DNA from: a virus
Virus record (IMG/VR): IMGVR_UViG_3300031673_000170
Location: 1 to 40,933 of that record
Direction: 5' to 3' (one strand)
Length of the DNA stretch: 40,933 bases
A program made the position numbers and the translations under genes. Position 1 is the first letter of the stretch; every line of letters begins with the position of its first letter. Under the pieces are notes generated by a model, which was not told where the DNA came from, made no database searches, and saw only the letters and a program-made list of their open reading frames with translations. Below are positions 23,484 through 39,806 of the stretch, piece after piece.

Positions 23484-24314
23484 ATGGGAGACAAAGCATT
23501 ACTGGTGGGAATCAACGCCTATTCCGGCGCGCCTTTGAGTGGGTGCGTTAACGATTCCTCGGATTTTGCCGAATACCTCGCGAGCCCGTATGTAAAGTTC
23601 AAATATGATAACGTGCGTATGCTCTGCGACGAGCGGGCCACGACGCAGGCTATCCTGGAAAGGCTTGAGTGGCTTGTGGACGTCGGCCCAGGTGATCGCT
23701 GCTTCTTCCATTACAGTGGGCATGGCGCGCAATATCCGTCCAGGGATTACAAGCAGGAGCTGGACAACATGTTGGAGGTTATTTGCCCGGTTGACTTCGA
23801 TTGGACGCCTGAGCATCTGATCACCGACAAGCAGTTTGTGGATATCTTTTCTAGAATCCCAAAAGGTGTACGGTTCAACTGGGTTAGCGACAGCTGTCAT
23901 TCAGGTGATCTTACGCGCGATATTGGCACGGCCCCTGCATTGTTGTTGGAAGGGGTTAAGGCAGAGCCATGCCCGAAGCCACGTAGGCATCCAGTGCCTG
24001 CTGACATCGCCTGGCGCATGCGCGGGGCCAAGAGCCGTAATCTCGCTGCTACAGACCGCGGCATGGTCTGCGGTAAGTTGGATGTTGGATTCATCTCTGG
24101 TTGCCGTTCCGACCAGACCTCCATGGATGCCTGGTTTAACGGCCGGCCTGGTGGGGCTCTGACGCAGAACTTGCTTAGGGTGCTTAAGGCCAACAAGACG
24201 TCAATGCCGCTTCTTCGAGTTGTGGCGCTGACGTCAAAAGCGTTGAAGACGGGTGGGTTCTCCCAGACTCCTCAGTGCGAGGGTGCCCGGGCTAAGAAGG
24301 CGTTTTTGGGTTGA
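23484..24314 (+). CDS. Caspase-like cysteine protease (metacaspase family, C14)
   Basis: A 276-residue protein; AAAGGAGAAATAGC precedes the ATG at 23484. It opens with the family start GDKALLVGINAY and SGCVNDSSDFAEYL. The catalytic pair is His80 (FFHYSGHG) and Cys138 (VSDSCHSGD). The substrate-pocket acid region DFDWTPE is present, and the C-terminus has GGALTQNLL. All key residues of an active metacaspase are kept, and there is no signal peptide or prodomain. Bacterial caspase-like proteases act in defence and cell-death pathways. A phage copy could cleave a host effector, mature a phage protein or be a decoy. The tRNA gene begins two bases after its stop codon begins to be followed (24315). 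Confidence 0.88.
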   Translation: MGDKALLVGINAYSGAPLSGCVNDSSDFAEYLASPYVKFKYDNVRMLCDERATTQAILERLEWLVDVGPGDRCFFHYSGHGAQYPSRDYKQELDNMLEVICPVDFDWTPEHLITDKQFVDIFSRIPKGVRFNWVSDSCHSGDLTRDIGTAPALLLEGVKAEPCPKPRRHPVPADIAWRMRGAKSRNLAATDRGMVCGKLDVGFISGCRSDQTSMDAWFNGRPGGALTQNLLRVLKANKTSMPLLRVVALTSKALKTGGFSQTPQCEGARAKKAFLG

Positions 24315-24387
24315 GTCTCCGTAGCTCAATTTGGCAGAGCAGCGGATTCTAAATCCGTGGTTGCGGGTTCAATTCCTGTCGGAGACA
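24315..24387 (+). tRNA. tRNA with anticodon CTA (amber suppressor)
   Basis: A full cloverleaf: acceptor GTCTCCG/CGGAGAC (perfect), D stem GCTC/GAGC, anticodon stem GCGGA/TCCGT, loop TTCTAAA (24347-24353), variable GGTT, T stem GCGGG/CCTGT with loop TTCAATT, discriminator A. The 34-36 bases are C-T-A, which reads UAG. The sequence resembles phage arginine tRNAs whose loop is TTTCTAA; a one-base shift would turn TCT into CTA. CCA is not fully encoded (ACAT follows). The charged amino acid cannot be read from sequence; G1-C72 and A73 do not match the E. coli glutamine set. It lies directly after the caspase-like gene. Confidence 0.9.
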
Positions 24388-24391
24388 CATA

Positions 24392-24919
24392 ATGTCAATC
24401 AGAGCAGAGACTGAATGTGCGCTCATACATCTTTGTCACCTGGTACTGGCACATCCTGGTGGCCCGCCCGATGAAAAAGACTGGGATGTTGTATTTGACA
24501 AGGCGTCTGCTGCGCTTTCCCTTCTTCAGGCCGAAGAGCGAAGAAAGGAAAATGGCGGCGGCCATTTTGATGGCGAAACCTATAACCCGGCGCTCGACTA
24601 CGATCGTTTGAAGAAGCAGCTTGGCCGTGTGTTCAATTTGATGGCCGACGGCAAATGGCGGACGCTTGGTGAGATAGCAGCTGCGCTGGCGGACCCGGAG
24701 GCCTCCGTGTCTGCCAGGTTGAGGGATTTAAGGAAGCCGAAATTTGGAAATTACAAAGTACCGCGCAGGCGCCGGGGTTCCGTTAAAGCGGGCTTGTGGG
24801 AGTATTGTCTGTTATCCCCATCCGGTGATGGGGTTGCCGCACTGGCGCCAGCCCAGGAAACAGAAAAAGGGGTAACGCATGGCGAATTTAGAAAAAGTAA
24901 TGTTGTCAATTTCGATTGA
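24392..24919 (+). CDS. Winged-helix DNA-binding protein
   Basis: A 175-residue protein starting five bases after the tRNA. The N-terminal helix bundle (LIHLCHLVLAHPGGPPDEKD) is followed from about residue 85 by a winged helix: LMADGKWRTLGEIAAALADP, then EASVSARLRDLRKPKFGNYK and a basic wing (PRRRRGSVKAGLWEYCL). This type occurs in phage regulators and replication proteins. The C-terminus overlaps the next gene by 41 bases. It may regulate the RNA/anti-defence cluster. Confidence 0.7.
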   Translation: MSIRAETECALIHLCHLVLAHPGGPPDEKDWDVVFDKASAALSLLQAEERRKENGGGHFDGETYNPALDYDRLKKQLGRVFNLMADGKWRTLGEIAAALADPEASVSARLRDLRKPKFGNYKVPRRRRGSVKAGLWEYCLLSPSGDGVAALAPAQETEKGVTHGEFRKSNVVNFD

Positions 24920-25382
24920 TCAGTGGTTCGAATATCACGCCCCGCATGGCGATCAGGCTGTGCGTTACGAAAAGCTCAGGGCGAAGGGGAAGGAGCTGGC
25001 GGAGATGATCCAGGAGTTGTGCCCGGAGTCTGAAGATCGGCTTGTTGCGATCCGGAAGGTGCGTGAGGCAATCATGACGGCGAATGCAGCTATCGCTTGT
25101 TCTGATCCCGCTGATGTGGGGGTCGGTCCCACGGGTACGTTCGGCGTCGTTGTTAAGCCCGAAAATGATGTAACGGACATTGAAAATACTCCGTACGTGG
25201 CCGTTGGTGCAGATGAACTCGGCAAAGCTGGGTCGTTGGGGGATGTCTTTGACTGCCCTAAATGTAAGTGTGCGCACAAGATCACATCTTCAAAATCTGA
25301 GAATGGGTCGAGTTCGCTTGAGACATACGATTGCAGCGGTAAGACCTACATGATTGGCATCGACGGGAAAAAGATAAAATAA
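24879..25382 (+). CDS. Acb2-like anti-CBASS domain fused to a C-terminal zinc ribbon
   Basis: A 167-residue protein. Residues about 12-75 match the Acb2/Tad1-type helical hairpin domain: QWFEYHAPHGDQAVRYEKLR, then LAEMIQELCPESEDRLVAIR and KVREAIMTANAAIAC. In known phages Acb2 is a hexamer that binds cyclic oligonucleotides and blocks CBASS immunity. The remainder is longer than usual: a linker and a cysteine cluster (DCPKCKCAH, C126-C131; later YDCSGK), probably a zinc ribbon. An added nucleic-acid or protein contact is possible. It sits between the wHTH gene and the tmRNA. The assignment is from pattern memory. Confidence 0.72.
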   Translation: MANLEKVMLSISIDQWFEYHAPHGDQAVRYEKLRAKGKELAEMIQELCPESEDRLVAIRKVREAIMTANAAIACSDPADVGVGPTGTFGVVVKPENDVTDIENTPYVAVGADELGKAGSLGDVFDCPKCKCAHKITSSKSENGSSSLETYDCSGKTYMIGIDGKKIK

Positions 25383-25432: not shown

Positions 25433-25799
25433 GGGGCCGACTTAGATTCGACGTTGTGTGCGGAGGATACAGGGGCAGATCGCGGTTGGGTAGTTGGCCG
25501 CGTTAACAAGCTACCCAAACAACAAGTGCCAACAACAAAGTTGTTGCCGGCAACTTCGGCGCAAGCCGGATTGCCCTCGCAGCCTAACCAGCTGCGGGTA
25601 AAATCGCCAGCGCGCCACTGATTCCCGGCAAACGCTGGAAGGTCCAAAGGGGATCGGACTGATGGATAGACATCTGACGGCGGCCAAAGGCCGTTGACAC
25701 GAGCGTCATCTCGGCGGAAAGACGAAACGATGACTAAATCTGTAGGCCCTGTGTTTTAAGCCATAGCGGACTTGGGGGCAGATCCCAACGGCTCCACCA
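25433..25799 (+). ncRNA. ssrA: tmRNA (transfer-messenger RNA)
   Basis: The 5' end GGGGCCGACTTAGATTCGAC carries the conserved ATTCGAC, and the 3' end CGGCTCCACCA pairs with it: GGGGCCG/CGGCTCC with the G3-U70 wobble typical of alanine charging. The T arm is TTGGG/CCCAA with an unusual loop GGCAGAT. Pseudoknot 1 is clear (GCGG/CCGC and GGGTAG/CTACCC, about 25476-25516). The tag frame starts at the resume codon GCC (25528) and ends at TAA (25585-25587): ANNKVVAGNFGASRIALAA. The ALAA end is the usual protease signal. tmRNA rescues stalled ribosomes. The phage copy encodes CCA. Confidence 0.93.
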
Positions 25800-25820
25800 A
25801 ACTTACTTAGGAGGTCAATC

Positions 25821-25829
25821 ATGTCTTAG
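25821..25829 (+). CDS. Two-codon minigene ATG-TCT-TAG with strong ribosome-binding site
   Basis: AGGAGG (25809-25814) lies six bases before ATG-TCT-TAG, 22 bases past the tmRNA end. Reading past the TAG gives NKWDHPP and TGA at 25851-25853. That TGA overlaps a GTG (25850) opening a 10-residue frame SFLAGLQIT. In phage lambda, two-codon bar minigenes cause peptidyl-tRNA drop-off that is toxic without peptidyl-tRNA hydrolase. Here a Pth2-like gene lies 0.8 kb away, and the stop is UAG, which the phage suppressor tRNA could read. It may be a leader or a decayed gene instead. Confidence 0.4.
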   Translation: MS

Positions 25830-25906
25830 AACAAATGGGATCATCCGCCGTGAGCTTCCTGGCTGGCCTTCAGATCACTTAAACCAACTTCAAGGAGAGA
25901 TTAATC

Positions 25907-26416
25907 ATGGCGAATGTTCAAGACGTTTTGCGGTACAGTATTGCGAAGTTGTCAGACAAAATCCGTGCAGTAAAGCTGGATGCGCTTAAGTCGGAGGCTT
26001 CTGAGCAGCGTGCATACCGGAACATAAAGACCGGTGAAGAGATCTCGGAAGCGGTCTTTCTCAAGCAGTATTCCTTATCCCCTGACAAAAAGATCGACGG
26101 TGAGTATTGGTGGCGTAGTTGGGTGGCATTTAAGCGGCCCTGTATCAAATCCGTCTGTCACATAAATCCGAAGCATAGTAACTGGAACACGTACCTCGGC
26201 CTAAAGCGCGCGGTTACGGCCAATCTGGTCGCGTTGAGGCGAACCCGATCTCGAAGTGTTGCTGCCTGGAGTGAGAAATACAACGAGCTGGGCAGGCGCA
26301 TGTGTTTGCGAATCATCGTGCAGCTTCAGGAAGGCAAGCGTGATTTTTCTGATGTGGACAAGTGGGTTGAAGAAAGGAAACGAGAGCGTGCTGAAGTTAC
26401 GACGAGCTGCGGATGA
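25907..26416 (+). CDS. Unknown basic protein (169 residues)
   Basis: CAAGGAG lies nine bases before the ATG. The product starts MANVQDVLRYSIAKLSDKIR and is basic and helical, with a Trp-rich centre (GEYWWRSWVAFKRPCIKSVC) and Arg-rich helices (LVALRRTRSRSVAAWSEKYN). The C-terminus is charged. It is the first full gene after the tmRNA and overlaps the next by 29 bases. RNA binding is possible from charge only. No family is recognised. Confidence 0.7.
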   Translation: MANVQDVLRYSIAKLSDKIRAVKLDALKSEASEQRAYRNIKTGEEISEAVFLKQYSLSPDKKIDGEYWWRSWVAFKRPCIKSVCHINPKHSNWNTYLGLKRAVTANLVALRRTRSRSVAAWSEKYNELGRRMCLRIIVQLQEGKRDFSDVDKWVEERKRERAEVTTSCG

Positions 26417-26699
26417 GCAGGTTAGCTTCCATGGCCAGAAACCACATGACAAATGGGATGATGCCGTCTATATCGCGGAGACCGAGATCATCGCGATTGA
26501 AGTTTGCATTTATCGTATCAACGATTCATTTACCCGCGGTTCTTCTGTTCGTTTGCGTAACGGGCAGCGTTACCGCGTTTGTGAGAAGGTTGAGCAGGTG
26601 GCCCAGATGATGGAGAAGTTTAATGAAAGTCTATGTGATTGTAAGAAAGGATCTGGAACCTGCTCAACAGATCGTGCAGGCATGTCATGCCGTTGCTGA
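26388..26699 (+). CDS. Small FlbD-like unknown protein (103 residues)
   Basis: GTG 26388 with AGGA about ten bases upstream. The core reads ETEIIAIEVCIYRINDSFTR followed by GSSVRLRNGQRYRVCEKVEQ, a two-strand pattern like the FlbD/YlzI family of small proteins. The C-terminus (CDCKKGSGTCS, GMSCRC) runs 77 bases into the next gene, so part of it may be dispensable. A competing ATG at 26413 in another frame is less protein-like. Function unknown. Confidence 0.55.
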   Translation: MLKLRRAADEQVSFHGQKPHDKWDDAVYIAETEIIAIEVCIYRINDSFTRGSSVRLRNGQRYRVCEKVEQVAQMMEKFNESLCDCKKGSGTCSTDRAGMSCRC

Positions 26700-26952
26700 G
26701 TTGTTCATGCTGCTTGGCCCCCATTCATGGTGGCAGTCGCTGCCTGAATGGGGGCGCGAGCACAAAACGATAGTCGTGTTGGGTGTCAAGAACGAGGTGA
26801 CGTTGGCTCGGTTTTGTCATTTCAAGCCTGAGTGGCTGGCGGTTGCAACGTTCAAGGAACCTGACATGGACAATCAGCTCACGGCCGCGGCCTGCGGGCC
26901 TGTACCTGACGAGTTGGCAGACGAGGTGTTTGGCAAGTTCAATCTTTTGTAG
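26623..26952 (+). CDS. Peptidyl-tRNA hydrolase 2 (Pth2)-like protein
   Basis: GGAG lies about seven bases before the ATG. The 109-residue product starts MKVYVIVRKDLEPAQQIVQA followed by CHAVAEL, the Pth2 pattern (V-V-R-x-D-L ... Q-x2-H-A). It continues with TIVVLGVKNEVTLARF, and the end AACGPVPDELADEVFGKFNL matches the Pth2 end IGPAP-x2-LIDEVTGHLKLL. The family frees tRNA from peptidyl-tRNA that drops off ribosomes. The active-site lysine of archaeal/eukaryotic Pth2 (K in KMxxGK) is not at its usual place (EPAQQ), as in other phage forms I recall. Adjacent tmRNA and minigene make a translation role likely. Confidence 0.72.
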   Translation: MKVYVIVRKDLEPAQQIVQACHAVAELFMLLGPHSWWQSLPEWGREHKTIVVLGVKNEVTLARFCHFKPEWLAVATFKEPDMDNQLTAAACGPVPDELADEVFGKFNLL

Positions 26953-26962
26953 GGAGTTTACC

Positions 26963-27175
26963 ATGCCGGTAGAAATTACCCAGGAGCAACAGGCAGAGTT
27001 AGACAAGATTAACACCATGTCGCGGGAAGATATGTGTCGTCTTTGGCGCAACGCCAAAAGCGGGCATCCATACTTCGATTCAGCAAAACCATACTACGCT
27101 GTGTTCAAGGCCCGGTTCGACCAACTGGGTGGTTTCAATGCTGTCATCAGTAAGAAAATAGGGTGGGATGGATAA
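26963..27175 (+). CDS. Small unknown protein (70 residues)
   Basis: GGGAG lies six bases before ATG 26963, ten bases after the Pth2-like stop. The product starts MPVEITQEQQAELDKINTMS and continues with SREDMCRLWRNAKSGHPYFD and YYAVFKARFDQLGGFNAVIS. This is a compact helical protein typical of phage small genes. It is followed by an inserted HNH endonuclease gene. No function is assigned. Confidence 0.7.
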   Translation: MPVEITQEQQAELDKINTMSREDMCRLWRNAKSGHPYFDSAKPYYAVFKARFDQLGGFNAVISKKIGWDG

Positions 27176-28451: not shown

Positions 28452-29348
28452 ATGAGTAGCAGTGTACAGGTGTTAGCAGATAAAAATCTCATACAACCGC
28501 CAAAATGGTTACCGTTAAACGTACACTACGAAACCATCATGGGGTCCGTTGCTTACGGCGTGTCGAGTGATACATCCGACATGGATGTCTACGGTTTCTG
28601 CATCCCGCCGAAGGAAATCATCTTTCCGCATCTGGCCGGTGAAATACAGGACTTCGGCAGGCAGAAGAAGAGGTTCGAGGAGTTTCAGCAACATAGGGTA
28701 GTTTATGGGGATAAGACCTACGATCTGTTAATTTACAGCATCGTAAAGTATTTTTCGTTGTGTATGGAAAATAACCCTAACATGATCGATTCCCTTTTCA
28801 CGCCTGACAGCTGTGTTCTCCACATCAGTTCGGTAGGGCTTATGGTGCGGGAACAACGGCAGCTGTTCTTGCACAAGGGGGCCTGGCATAAGTTCAAGGG
28901 TTATGCCTACAGCCAGATACACAAACTGAAGAATAAGAACCCGGCCGGAAAACGTTTGGAGTTGGTTGAGAAGTACGGGTATGACACAAAATTCGCTTAT
29001 CATACGGTTCGACTGCTAAACGAGATTGAGATGATATTGTCTGAGGGTACTTTGGATTTGCAGCGTAATCGGGAGCAGCTTAAATCGATTCGGCGTGGCG
29101 ATTGGAGTGAACAGGCTGTTCTTGATTATTTCAGTCAGAAGGAATTAAGTTTGGAGGGACTATATCAGTCCAGCAAACTGAGACATGGTCCTGATGAGGA
29201 GGCGATTAAGGCCTTGTTGCTTAATTGCCTGGAGCACCATTACGGCAGCCTTGACAAGTGTGTGGTCAAGGTTGGTGTAGCCGAGTCTTACTTAAATGAG
29301 ATCACCGCGGTTGTTGACAGGTGGAGAAATACGGGGAGATCAACGTGA
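28452..29348 (+). CDS. RlaP-type nucleotidyltransferase
   Basis: A 298-residue protein. The nucleotidyltransferase active site is MGSVAYGVSSDTSDMDVYG (about residues 30-48, GS plus D-x-D). It continues with YDLLIYSIVKYFSLCMENNP and NMIDSLFTP, the pattern of family RlaP (PF10127), often near RNA ligases in phages and bacteria. The C-terminal helical part reads YHTVRLLNEIEMILSEGTLD. The substrate is unknown; RNA end modification or repair is plausible given the tRNA and tmRNA of this phage. It ends in GTGA overlap with the next gene. Confidence 0.82.
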   Translation: MSSSVQVLADKNLIQPPKWLPLNVHYETIMGSVAYGVSSDTSDMDVYGFCIPPKEIIFPHLAGEIQDFGRQKKRFEEFQQHRVVYGDKTYDLLIYSIVKYFSLCMENNPNMIDSLFTPDSCVLHISSVGLMVREQRQLFLHKGAWHKFKGYAYSQIHKLKNKNPAGKRLELVEKYGYDTKFAYHTVRLLNEIEMILSEGTLDLQRNREQLKSIRRGDWSEQAVLDYFSQKELSLEGLYQSSKLRHGPDEEAIKALLLNCLEHHYGSLDKCVVKVGVAESYLNEITAVVDRWRNTGRST

Positions 29349-30648: not shown

Positions 30649-30855
30649 GTGAAACAGTACGAGGAGAACGGTGACATTCTTACGACCCCCGTCTACGTTG
30701 GGTCGATCGAGGATGTTGAGAAGGCCAGTAAGTGTGAACACAAGCGCTGGATTCAGAGTGAGGTAAAGCTTTCGCCGAAATACGCGGAAGCGATTATGGA
30801 GCGGTGTGCGGGTTGTGTAGCTACACGGCTCCGTGTTCCGAGAAAGCGCAGATAA
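30649..30855 (+). CDS. Small basic protein (68 residues), GTG start
   Basis: AAGGGGG lies six bases before GTG. The product starts MKQYEENGDILTTPVYVGSI, then CEHKRWIQSEVKLSPKYAEA, then ERCAGCVATRLRVPRKRR. Cysteines C-E-H and C-A-G-C may form one metal site, and the end is strongly basic. No family is recognised. Confidence 0.65.
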   Translation: MKQYEENGDILTTPVYVGSIEDVEKASKCEHKRWIQSEVKLSPKYAEAIMERCAGCVATRLRVPRKRR

Positions 30856-35789: not shown

Positions 35790-38700
35790 ATGTTCTTTCC
35801 ACAAATGTTTTCAAGAGAGCTGCCTGCGGATGCAAGTTGGAGTCCGGAGGCGGAGTCATTTTACCCACTGACACACACATATGAATATGCTGCCAACGAG
35901 CTTGGCTTTTCAGATGCGCATGAGTTGGCGCAGGTTCTTCTTTATCAGCCAACGGAGATGCCGGTGCCGGACGGGACGGGGCTCGGGTTTCGCAACGTGA
36001 CATGGTTGCCGGCCAACCATTACGGCTCCGGGGCCTTTGGGCCGCGGGCTCGGCCTGAGGTGATGGTGATTGGCAAGATGCCCGGCACAGAGGAAATACA
36101 GCAGAAGCGCAACTTCGTGGGAAGGTCCGGGGAGCTGTTGCGCAAAGTTGCCGAGGATGTGGGGTTGAACGTAAATGATTGGCATTGCACGAACACCGTC
36201 AGGTTTCTTCCCGCTGACGGCGGCAAGTCGCTGAAGCCGTTTCATGTTCGAGACTGCATGTCTTTGCTTGCGCAAGAGATCAGCCTGTCCCGGCCCAAGA
36301 CGATACTGCTTACCGGCGCCGATGCGGTTAAGGCTGTTTTTGGAAAACATGCCACGCTCAGCAAGGTGCGAAGTTGTGTATTCGGGATGCCGGGCGTCGC
36401 GGGCCTGGGACACATGCCCTTGGAGATGCAGCGGCTTCCGGCTGATTTCGACGGGATCATGGTGCTGGCTACGATACATCCGGCGGCGGTATTGCGGGAG
36501 GCCGGATATCTCAATGGTTTCATCAAGGACCTGGAGTTGTTCCGTACCGTGCTGGGCGGCCAGACGGATTTCAAAGAGGTTGATCCGGATATGGCGGTGC
36601 TGGACACGGCTGAAGATGTTGAAGCGTTGGTTGAACTGATTTTGAGTGAGGGATACTCCAAGATAGCCGTAGACTGTGAATGGGGCGGCAAGTCTTATTT
36701 GGATGGGGTGTTACGTTCCATCCAGTTGTGCTGGCGTCCGGACGAGACGGCTGTGATTGTCTTTACCAGGGCCGGGAACGTGCCCGCGCAGGACGGGCCT
36801 GGCACGATCCGGATAAAGGAAGCGCTCAGATATCTTTTTGGGCATCCCCACATCAAGCTTATCGGCCACAACATGCGGGCTGACGCCAAGTGGTTGGGTG
36901 ATCAAGTGGCCAACGTAATCGAGAAGACTTGTTTCGATACGATGCTGGCTGACCACATTTTGAATGAGAACGCCGAGCACGGCTTGGACGCGTGCGCCAT
37001 ACGGTTTGCCGGCAAGGGCCGGTATGACCGGGCGTTGACGCGTTGGATGGATGAGGTGGGTTCTGAGGAGATAAGCAAGAACGGGTTCTTGAATGTGCCT
37101 GATGACATTCTTCATCCATACGGGGCCAACGACGTGGATGCTACGTTAAAGTTGGCAACCGTGATGGAAAGCATGTTGGCGCATCCCGGCAACCACCCGG
37201 TTTCGCGTTGCTTTTACGAGATCGTGATGCCGTGCATGATGCCCATTCACGAGATTGAGACCACGGGGATTGTGGCCGATCGTGAACGTATGGAGATGCT
37301 GGTGAACAAATATGCAGCCAAGCGCGACGAGCTGCTGGATAAGATAAGGACGGAGCTTACCCATATTTTTGGCGGTAATGCCGCGGTTGTAGCTGATTTC
37401 GAGCTTGGGGGTTCTGAGGACGATGCAGTCTGCGAGATAAGTCCTGAGCAGGTTGAACGCGCCAAGGCTTCGTCAGCTGCGCTTGCGGCTTTCAATCCGC
37501 GCAGTTACTTGCAGATGGAGAAGTTGTTGTTTGCCAAGCCGCCGGAAGGGTTTGGGCTCACGCCTTTGAAGACCACGGAGAAGCCGGCCCGGATGTGGGT
37601 CGATCTGGATCGTTTGTCCGAGGAGGAGATGCGGTTTATCAGCCCGTCCACGGATGCAGAGTCCATGGAGTTCATTGCGTCGCAGACGGATGAGCCTGTG
37701 GTCAAGTTGATTCAGGACTTCAAGATCATTGACCAGATGATCAAGATGTTTTTGCGTTTGCCGGAGGAAGTGGACGGTCGGCTTGAATATGTGGACGGGT
37801 TGATTGGCAAGATCGATCTGGATGGCAGGATTCGAACCACGATATCCCAGATGAGTGAGACAGGGCGATGGAAATCGTCCAATCCGAATTGTTTCGATCC
37901 GGAAGTCGAGTTGTTGACTTCTCACGGTTGGATCAGCGTTTGTGAGATTTATGAAGGCAGGCACAACCCGGTTGCCGTAGCTCAGATGGATGTCAATACG
38001 GGTGAAATCACGTTTGAGCTGCCGTTGGAATATCAACGAGTTGAAACAACAGTGATGGTTCGGGTTTTCACGGATAAGCAAATAGACCTGGTCATGACGC
38101 CGGATCACAGATGTCTGGTTTATACGCGCGAAATGGAACCGTGTTTTGTTTCCGCAGGCAATTATCCGGAAGATCACAAACAGCTCAATGCAGGTAGATA
38201 TGTGGGTGGAAACGTATCAATGCCTGAGAGTCAAATTGCGCTGATTTGTGCGCTTCAAGCCGATGTGCATGTAACGAAATGGGGAAGTTATGATTTCGGA
38301 TTCAAGAAAGCCAGAAAGATAGAGCGTTTGGAATGGGCTTTGAAAAGTCAGGGCATACACTTCAAGCGTTATGCCGGCAAGACTCGAACAAGATTTTACA
38401 TTTTCAGGGAGGATATACCTGACTGGTTCAAGCTTGTACCTCCTTGGTATCCAGGAAATCGACAGTTTGGTAGTTGGTTGTTGTCTTTGGATCGTGAGTC
38501 TTTATCCATGTTTTCAAGGGAGGTGTGGTTCTGGGGTGGTTGTTACAGACTTCAAAGCATGTTTGCTTCGAAAGACAGGATCAATGTTGATTGGGTTCAG
38601 ATAGTTTCCATCCTGTCTGGCAGACGCGCGAAGATCAGGAAGTACACGTACGGTGAGAATCTTGTTTTGTGGCAAGTGGACGCAACTGATCAGCGTTTCA

Positions 38701-39806
38701 GCATGACTACAAATAGGACGATTGAGTCTATACGCATGCCTGATGGCTACGCAGCATACTGCGTTACAATGTCTAAAGGAACAGTCATTGCTCGTTACAA
38801 TGGCCGGGTTCACATAACTGGGCAGTGTCAGAACATCCCAAAGAAGCAGGACAAACACATGAAGCGGATCATGGGCAAGGACACGCCCACGATCCGTTCA
38901 TGCTTTACGGTTCCAAAAGGCCACGTGATGATTGAAGCGGATTACAAGTCTGCTGAGATTTTTACGCTTGGTTATCTTTCGAATTGTATGAAGCTGGTGG
39001 AAGATGCCAAGAGCGATTTGCATGCGCGTGGTGCTGTGACGCGTCTGGGTGCGCCCAAGTGGGACGGGTTTGACGAGGGCTTGCCGCCTGATGACTTGTG
39101 GAAGGATACCTACAAGGCGCTTCGGGTGGCTTCCAAGACCATATCATTTGGCATTCCGTATCAGCGGGGCGCCAAGGCAATTGCGCGCGAGATTGTTAAG
39201 TCAACTGAGGGTAAGATGGAGTGCGATACGCAGCGAGCGCAGCTCTTCATCGACGGTTTCTACGAGCAGTATCCGGAAGTTCGTGATTACGTGGAAATGT
39301 GCAAGCGCGCGGTGACGTCGCCTGGATATCTCGAAAATCCTTTCGGAAGAAGGAGGAGAGCCTATGTAAACGCTCAAACAGACGAGAAACTCAAGGCAGG
39401 CTTGGAGCGGGAGTTTGTGAACTTCCCGATTCAGGCCACGGTTGCTGACGCGCTTAACAGAGCCGTTTTTAACCTGTGGGGTTACCGGAGACTGTATCCG
39501 GGTCAGACCCAATATAAGATTTTGTTGGCCATCCATGATGCTGTTTTGATTGAGGCGCCAGGTAGCGAGCTTGAGGTGCTTACAGAGAATATTATACCTC
39601 GTTGCATGGTTGAAGAGGCGCGTGTTCCATCCTGGGCCTGTACAGGATCTCAGTCGTTTTCGTTGGACATCGACATCGAGGTGGGTACTCGATGGGGTGA
39701 GTCGTGTACGGCGGCCGAGTTGAGCGGAGCAGGTGTTCCCGATTACCTCGTTGACAAGTTCACGTTGAAAAAAGGAGACGTACCGTGGGTTACAAAGAAG
39801 ATGTGA
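35790..39806 (+). CDS. UDG-like domain + 3'-5' exonuclease + family A DNA polymerase, interrupted by an intein
   Basis: A 1338-residue precursor. Residues about 90-250 resemble family 4 uracil-DNA glycosylase (GKMPGTEEIQQKRNFVGRSG; TIHPAAVLREAG). Residues about 290-460 are the exonuclease (IAVDCEWGG; LIGHNMRADAKW; YGANDVDATLKL). The polymerase part is split by an intein at 701-1012 within the conserved SSNPN/CQNIP motif. Motif A is EADYKSAEIF (about 1048), motif B KTISFGIPYQRGAKA (about 1115), motif C AIHDAVLIE (about 1248; HDA where HDE is usual). The spliced protein would be 1026 residues. A UDG-polymerase fusion is also known in SPO1-like phages. It is the replicative polymerase. Confidence 0.9.
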   Translation: MFFPQMFSRELPADASWSPEAESFYPLTHTYEYAANELGFSDAHELAQVLLYQPTEMPVPDGTGLGFRNVTWLPANHYGSGAFGPRARPEVMVIGKMPGTEEIQQKRNFVGRSGELLRKVAEDVGLNVNDWHCTNTVRFLPADGGKSLKPFHVRDCMSLLAQEISLSRPKTILLTGADAVKAVFGKHATLSKVRSCVFGMPGVAGLGHMPLEMQRLPADFDGIMVLATIHPAAVLREAGYLNGFIKDLELFRTVLGGQTDFKEVDPDMAVLDTAEDVEALVELILSEGYSKIAVDCEWGGKSYLDGVLRSIQLCWRPDETAVIVFTRAGNVPAQDGPGTIRIKEALRYLFGHPHIKLIGHNMRADAKWLGDQVANVIEKTCFDTMLADHILNENAEHGLDACAIRFAGKGRYDRALTRWMDEVGSEEISKNGFLNVPDDILHPYGANDVDATLKLATVMESMLAHPGNHPVSRCFYEIVMPCMMPIHEIETTGIVADRERMEMLVNKYAAKRDELLDKIRTELTHIFGGNAAVVADFELGGSEDDAVCEISPEQVERAKASSAALAAFNPRSYLQMEKLLFAKPPEGFGLTPLKTTEKPARMWVDLDRLSEEEMRFISPSTDAESMEFIASQTDEPVVKLIQDFKIIDQMIKMFLRLPEEVDGRLEYVDGLIGKIDLDGRIRTTISQMSETGRWKSSNPNCFDPEVELLTSHGWISVCEIYEGRHNPVAVAQMDVNTGEITFELPLEYQRVETTVMVRVFTDKQIDLVMTPDHRCLVYTREMEPCFVSAGNYPEDHKQLNAGRYVGGNVSMPESQIALICALQADVHVTKWGSYDFGFKKARKIERLEWALKSQGIHFKRYAGKTRTRFYIFREDIPDWFKLVPPWYPGNRQFGSWLLSLDRESLSMFSREVWFWGGCYRLQSMFASKDRINVDWVQIVSILSGRRAKIRKYTYGENLVLWQVDATDQRFSMTTNRTIESIRMPDGYAAYCVTMSKGTVIARYNGRVHITGQCQNIPKKQDKHMKRIMGKDTPTIRSCFTVPKGHVMIEADYKSAEIFTLGYLSNCMKLVEDAKSDLHARGAVTRLGAPKWDGFDEGLPPDDLWKDTYKALRVASKTISFGIPYQRGAKAIAREIVKSTEGKMECDTQRAQLFIDGFYEQYPEVRDYVEMCKRAVTSPGYLENPFGRRRRAYVNAQTDEKLKAGLEREFVNFPIQATVADALNRAVFNLWGYRRLYPGQTQYKILLAIHDAVLIEAPGSELEVLTENIIPRCMVEEARVPSWACTGSQSFSLDIDIEVGTRWGESCTAAELSGAGVPDYLVDKFTLKKGDVPWVTKKM
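37890..38825 (+). mobile_element. Intein in the polymerase gene (312 residues)
   Basis: Block A begins CFDPEVELLTSHGW (Cys1, residue 701). Block B is LVMTPDHRCLVYT (T-x2-H). Block F/G is TVIARYNGRVHITGQ followed by Cys+1 (extein CQNIPKK). The last intein residue is Gln and the penultimate Gly, rather than the usual His-Asn, a rare variant. The middle carries LICALQADVHVTKWGSYDF, resembling the first LAGLIDADG motif in degenerate form, so the homing endonuclease may be inactive. The insertion is inside the PNLQNIP motif of family A polymerases; precise splicing is needed for activity. Confidence 0.9.

Follow-up and report, generated by a model that had tools for sequence, protein, structure and literature searches.

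A phage-borne one-piece tmRNA with matched D-loop and T-loop changes, close to an amber suppressor tRNA and a peptidyl-tRNA hydrolase gene

Introduction

Is a viral tmRNA still functional when its T-loop departs from the TTCRANT form? This question is raised by a 40,933-base viral contig record (the whole stretch analyzed, here called the window), which is linear and probably an incomplete fragment. The original prediction of a phage-encoded tmRNA is borne out by the terminase large subunit (TerL), PolA, and other phage genes in the record. Phage tmRNAs had been described there as rare and known in some mycobacteriophages. They do occur in these phages, but the statement is too narrow, since ARAGORN tmRNAs are present in 402 of 18,146 phage genomes (PMC9004378) and huge phages with both tmRNA and SmpB have been described (PMC7162821). 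In addition, a Sinorhizobium jumbo phage has a tmRNA, 66 tRNAs, and peptidyl-tRNA hydrolases (PMC11242549), and the co-occurrence of tmRNA and Pth has already been published for mycobacteriophage tRNA arrays (PMC5966550). We report here an analysis of the tmRNA gene, its loops, and its gene neighborhood.

Results

Checked against the covariance model of one-piece tmRNA (ssrA; RF00023), the gene matched from model position 1 to 374, covering the whole model, with 123.4 bits (E = 6e-48) against a gathering score of 47. Its parts and neighbors are listed in Table 1. The original prediction had stated that all landmarks are present, and this was confirmed by reading them from the sequence. (i) The acceptor stem GGGGCCG/CGGCTCC (25433-25439 with 25789-25799) forms 7 of 7 pairs, including G3-U70, so that the alanine identity landmarks are present; A73 and CCA follow. 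(ii) Pseudoknot 1 (PK1) is formed. (iii) The tag frame begins 11 bases downstream of PK1, at 25528, and its TAA is at 25585-25587. The tag, ANNKVVAGNFGASRIALAA, comprises 19 amino acids and ends in ALAA directly before the TAA, a hydrophobic, degron-like end. It had been called long, and it is indeed longer than usual, but the tags of tmRNAs found in other viral contigs have 8 to 32 amino acids, and 19 lies on the long side of this range. A two-piece (permuted) tmRNA was ruled out, since the 5' and 3' ends follow the usual order across the full-length RF00023 match. The element is thus a real tmRNA. An ARAGORN run on the window did not report it; the program misses the GGCAG class of one-piece tmRNAs, and phage tmRNAs are therefore undercounted.

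Table 1. Features of the tmRNA locus and its surroundings in the window
Feature	Position	Strand	Basis or remark
One-piece tmRNA (ssrA), CCA encoded	25433..25799	+	RF00023, full model
D-loop region ACTTAGATTCGAC	25440..25452	+	Sequence; comparison with 257 tmRNAs
Pseudoknot 1 stem GGGTAGT / GCTACCC	25488-25494 with 25510-25516	+	RF00023 alignment
Tag reading frame ANNKVVAGNFGASRIALAA + TAA, resume codon GCC	25528..25587	+	Sequence and RF00023 alignment
T-arm TTGGG-GGCAGAT-CCCAA (G54 G55 C56 A57 G58)	25772..25788	+	Sequence; covariation survey
3' acceptor strand CGGCTCC (U70 opposite G3), A73, CCA	25789..25799	+	Sequence
AGGAGG and short frame ATG TCT TAG AAC AAA TGG GAT CAT CCG CCG TGA	25809..25853	+	Amber at codon 3
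Caspase-domain protein, upstream of tRNA	23484..24314	+	PF00656 1.7e-27; longest frame from 23409, start position provisional
tRNA, anticodon CUA (amber suppressor type)	24315..24388	+	ARAGORN; RF00005 64.4 bits
Protein with Acb2/Tad1 hairpin domain (anti-CBASS type)	24879..25382	+	PF24729 2e-13
169-aa protein between tmRNA and PTH2, no Pfam or PHROG match	25907..26416	+	Pfam and PHROG searches
PTH2-type peptidyl-tRNA hydrolase, ordinary ATG start, ends in TAG	26623..26952	+	PF01981 3e-11
RlaP, RNA-repair nucleotidyltransferase family	28452..29348	+	PF10127 2.6e-16

A number of features would fit a decaying copy, in which the T-loop has drifted and function has been weakened or lost. The T-loop departs from TTCRANT, the alignment to RF00023 is poor in the second half (PK2-PK4 region), and no close relative of this tmRNA was found in a tree and comparison of parsed tmRNAs, where the best identity was about 55%. 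However, the acceptor pairs, G3-U70, A73, CCA, and PK1 are intact, as is the tag including its ALAA end, and the T-loop change is matched in the D-loop. There, a deviation overlooked in the original prediction was found: positions 25443-25452 read TAGATTCGAC where TGGATTCGAC is usual (UAG for UGG). An A at 25444 replaces the conserved G18, and G19 is retained at 25445. In tRNA numbering, the elbow partners are changed from G18 to A and from U55 to G, and the T-loop partners from U54 to G and from A58 to G; G19 and C56 are unchanged. The commonest form of the D-loop/T-loop elbow (18 with 55, 54 with 58) is thus absent, and a recurrent matched form, A18/G55 plus G54/G58, is present.

The recurrence of this form was assessed in a survey in which A18 D-loops were sought in viral contigs and genomes, G18 D-loops were sought in viral contigs, and five bacterial phyla were sampled. 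In the unselected sample of the five phyla, 114 of 116 parsed tmRNAs had G18/U55, two had A18/G55, and none was mixed. The full set of 257 parsed one-piece tmRNAs, in which some rows repeat one another, contained 211 with G18/U55/U54-A58, 19 with A18/G55/U54-A58, and 25, the window included, with A18/G55/G54-G58. The G54/G58 pair was seen in these 25 only, always with A18/G55. Two odd rows remained: in L137, a two-piece gene was mistaken for a one-piece gene, and L311 has A at position 18 with U55. In a quick tree, which is weak at depth and was used solely for the scatter of A18/G55 members, these fell into separate groups (Planctomycetota, Acidobacteriota, Gemmatimonadota, Chloroflexota, Bacillota, and viral contigs), suggesting that the coordinated change arose repeatedly. 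Furthermore, the GGCAG loop belongs to the sole full-length tmRNA of a Sulfobacillus-like (Bacillota) genome and of Anaerolineae (Chloroflexi) genomes (around L115, L082, and L149). The A18 loci that lack a one-piece 3' end include 95 two-piece tmRNAs with the T-loop GGCAGTA, mostly from SAR11 bacteria and marine viral contigs, and GGCAG loops are found in most A18 two-piece tmRNAs of SAR11 relatives. Since sole chromosomal and two-piece tmRNAs carry such loops, these comparisons identify the GGCAGAT loop as a coordinated variant and an established alternative rather than decay or a mark of weak function, and tmRNAs of this kind presumably work with ordinary host factors. The matched D-loop change and the chromosomal occurrence also speak against the earlier proposal that the T-loop could weaken SmpB or EF-Tu handling or create a need for a phage factor. 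We consider a decaying copy most unlikely.

We assign a probability of roughly 78% to the following reading: the window carries an intact one-piece tmRNA of the A18-G55/G54-G58 form, in a tailed phage with a probably alphaproteobacterial host, that performs ordinary trans-translation with host partners and is part of a translation-maintenance island. We infer from sequence the expression, charging, and tagging of the phage tmRNA, its host, and the joint action of the island. The host AlaRS would alanylate the phage tmRNA through G3-U70, and host SmpB and EF-Tu would bring it to ribosomes stalled on messages that are broken or have no stop. The tag would then be added and the product destroyed by ClpXP-type proteases. 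The T-loop and D-loop changes would compensate each other, so that the elbow is kept. SmpB was sought in the window and in 18 related viral records whose one-piece tmRNAs are of the variant type, and none was found; the host SmpB would therefore have to serve. The lack of a phage SmpB would also suit a decoy role, in which the phage RNA occupies host SmpB or competes with the host tmRNA, as proposed for phage DS6A, which encodes an RNA with only the tRNA-like domain (PMC4131195). A tag frame is superfluous for a decoy, yet the tag frame, its degron-like end, and PK1 have all been retained here, and we regard this alternative as quite improbable.

The tmRNA gene lies within about 6 kb of same-strand genes for a caspase-domain protein, tRNA-CUA, an Acb2/Tad1-hairpin protein, PTH2, and RlaP. 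The tRNA-CUA would permit readthrough of UAG stops, the tmRNA would rescue over-reading ribosomes that reach the message end, peptidyl-tRNA would be recycled by PTH2, and the repair of cut RNA may fall to RlaP. Together, the tmRNA and PTH2 would mitigate any harm that UAG over-reading by the amber tRNA may cause. The direct functional link between tmRNA and amber tRNA is one that we infer from position only. The PTH2 domain scored 44 bits against a cut-off of 23 for PF01981, and a profile built from the phage PTH2 proteins matched PTH2 chains of solved structure. In the alignment of phage PTH2 proteins, the lysine that we take to be that of the archaeal GKxxxQ motif is replaced, and catalysis by phage PTH2 is only predicted.

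This neighborhood also bears on whether the tmRNA is a passenger picked up by chance, for example, after integration at a host ssrA. The ssrA gene is the attachment site of many phages and genomic islands, and in many of the viral contigs with a canonical ssrA motif, the motif is near a contig end, as expected of prophages. The tmRNA of the window, in contrast, is full-length, very diverged, and embedded in a cluster of phage genes next to tRNA-CUA, PTH2, and RlaP, and a similar linkage is found in several diverged phage contigs. A passenger therefore seems very unlikely.

Several further observations were made in the window. The caspase-domain gene, an unusual phage cargo, ends at the base immediately before tRNA-CUA. 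The Acb2/Tad1 hairpin domain is fused to a further C-terminal part, and the product is likely anti-CBASS, as judged from its domain match. Suppression of the TAG that ends PTH2 would add 20 residues, up to a TAA (26950-27012). One frame of 1338 amino acids (35790-39806) combines a UDG-like domain, a 3'-5' exonuclease, and DNA polymerase A, and by eye it contains an intein-like insert (CFDPEVELLTSHGW ... VHITGQC) between the exonuclease and polymerase parts. A genome-wide recoding of TAG was rejected, because coding density rose only from 0.90 to 0.93 with TAG as sense and several genes, including that for TerL, end in TAG.

Searches of viral contigs with the helicase or TerL, and of sequenced phages with the helicase or the tmRNA DNA, found no close relatives of the phage. 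The closest matches of RlaP are Caulobacter and Rhizobium phage proteins (50 to 54% identity), and several viral one-piece tmRNAs of the GGCAG loop class have tags starting with ANDN. The likeness of RlaP, the SAR11-type GGCAG/UAG loop pair, and the ANDN tags make an alphaproteobacterial host likely; this assignment draws mainly on one protein and the loop type, and GGCAG loops occur in Bacillota and Chloroflexota as well.

The link between tmRNA and PTH2 extends to other phages. Of 19 viral records whose one-piece tmRNA is of the variant type, 11 contain PTH2, as against none of 26 with canonical or permuted tmRNAs (Fisher p = 7e-6, uncorrected for the kinship of records). In eight or nine of these 11 records, PTH2 lies within about 2 kb of the tmRNA. 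Two other arrangements were seen around phage tmRNAs. In four records (L030, L043, L052, and L054), at least four tRNA-Thr genes with differing anticodons are directly upstream of the tmRNA, a strong amino-acid bias. A small CxxC...C zinc-ribbon-like protein was found in L005, L030, L033, L041, L043, L045, L054, and L056, and in several of them it starts within about 60 bases 3' of the tmRNA.

In cultured and metagenomic phages, PTH2 also adjoins suppressor tRNA genes, namely, tRNA-CUA in phages Arash, Myrna, Cane17, and ME3 and in two huge-phage records, and tRNA-UUA in a third huge-phage record and in Lak-B7. In Salmonella phage Arash, this tRNA (L471, 3298-3372) is annotated as Phe, whereas ARAGORN reads its anticodon as CUA. 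Many of these PTH2 genes have an in-frame TAG one to three codons after the start, with leaders such as ATG CTG TAG (Arash), ATG ACT TAG (ME3), ATG ACG CAC TAG (an Erwinia phage), and ATG TGT CTA TAG (L052), and annotation pipelines truncate or miss such genes, for example, in Arash and the Erwinia phage. Interrupted PTH2 genes, most of them next to a matching suppressor tRNA, are found in L489-L553, L555, L559-L561, and L563 and, for cultured phages, in L471, L482, and L483. We then collected 80 viral PTH2 loci by likeness to three interrupted genes. In 69 of them, the first in-frame stop is 2 to 11 codons before the PTH2 domain, with no ATG, GTG, or TTG between. This stop is TAG in 68 cases and TAA in one (L555), and the latter has a tRNA-UUA nearby. 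An ATG is found within eight codons before the TAG in 66 of the 68, usually with one to three codons between; given the way in which the loci were collected, 66/80 does not indicate how common such leaders are among phage PTH2 genes in general. Of the 68 TAG-interrupted genes, 61 have a tRNA-CUA within 4 kb. In a control set of 80 RlaP loci from viral contigs, ATG-TAG leaders were found in none and suppressor tRNAs in one (Fisher p about 4e-31 and 9e-34, uncorrected for kinship). In each of the 57 distinct contexts, the TAG is followed by a purine, and a purine at this position favors suppression. Ordinary PTH2 starts were observed in about ten of the 80 loci and in XacN1.

Many of the interrupted loci are not recoded overall: eight (L494, L496, L518, L530, L540, L549, L561, and L563) have a high coding density with the standard code and no gain with TAG as sense. 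Others may be recoded. Alternatively, translation could begin at a rare start codon after the TAG, such as ATT, so that no suppression is needed. ATT directly follows the TAG in 25 of the 57 distinct contexts, and in mycobacteriophages Myrna and Cane17 a GTG with good Shine-Dalgarno spacing does so, which may be an ordinary start. However, GTT, GTA, ACA, ACT, AGC, GGC, AGA, and AAC are also found directly after the TAG, a Shine-Dalgarno-like motif precedes the ATG upstream of the TAG by 6 to 9 nt in 12 of 55 distinct leaders, and matching suppressor tRNAs are nearby; we thus hold rare starts to be unlikely. The balance tips slightly toward an arrangement in which many large phages make PTH2 only when their own suppressor tRNA reads the early amber (in one case ochre) codon. 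The tRNA would then act as an autoregulated switch, and the tmRNA would have been recruited in some phages, such as that of the window, for over-reading ribosomes.

The PTH2 gene of the window itself has no start-TAG interruption. Its ordinary ATG is 3' of a TGA, and it is therefore not gated by an interrupting stop. A matching leader without PTH2 is nevertheless present shortly 3' of the tmRNA, where an AGGAGG Shine-Dalgarno sequence (25809-25814) precedes, by six bases, an ATG that is soon followed by TAG. This is the only site in the window with a Shine-Dalgarno sequence, a start, 0 to 4 codons, and TAG; for a stricter form (ATG, 0 to 3 codons, purine), a second-order Markov model predicts 0.075 sites. 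The leader reads MS-amber-NKW, and the start of the Arash PTH2 reads ML-amber-NKHW. It could be a relic, a regulatory leader, or a chance likeness over three residues. Other amber leaders in the window, such as GTG TAG at 30815, were dismissed, as ordinary starts follow.

Discussion

The tmRNA of the window shares with bacterial one-piece tmRNAs (RF00023) the gene order, the G3-U70 acceptor, PK1, the tag frame, CCA, and the landmarks of trans-translation. It differs in having A18/G55 and G54/G58 instead of G18/U55 and U54/A58, in its 19-amino-acid tag, and in being phage-borne. Its UAG D-loop and GGCAG T-loop are those of alphaproteobacterial two-piece tmRNAs (RF01849/RF04321), but the gene is one-piece and not permuted. 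The tmRNAs of the mycobacteriophage Bxz1 group, Bacillus phage G, huge phages, Melnitz, and Bradyrhizobium phages (PMC4131195, PMC7162821, PMC9004378, PMC12656738) are likewise full tmRNAs, often accompanied by tRNAs, and differ from that of the window in loop class. In this literature, together with PMC5966550, we did not find a linkage to PTH2 and a suppressor tRNA stated. Our literature search also retrieved no description of the 18-55/54-58 covariation in tmRNA, which does not by itself establish its absence from the literature. An apparent loop defect has thus become an example of a coordinated change in the tRNA elbow (18-55 plus 54-58), seemingly of several origins. If the host is alphaproteobacterial, the phage brings a one-piece tmRNA into a lineage whose own tmRNA is two-piece.

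Phage tRNAs with stop anticodons are known from code 15 recoded phages and theta-ribozyme-linked suppressor tRNAs (PMC9523058, PMC10879173) and from XacN1 (PMC5852040). The PTH2 loci share this type of tRNA but differ in that a single gene has a stop near its start, also in loci not recoded overall. In dozens of viral contigs, the PTH2 family carries a stop right after the start, beside the matching suppressor tRNA. The authors of the XacN1 study found no gene read by the amber suppressor tRNAs of that phage (PMC5852040), and PTH2 offers a testable answer to the question of their target.
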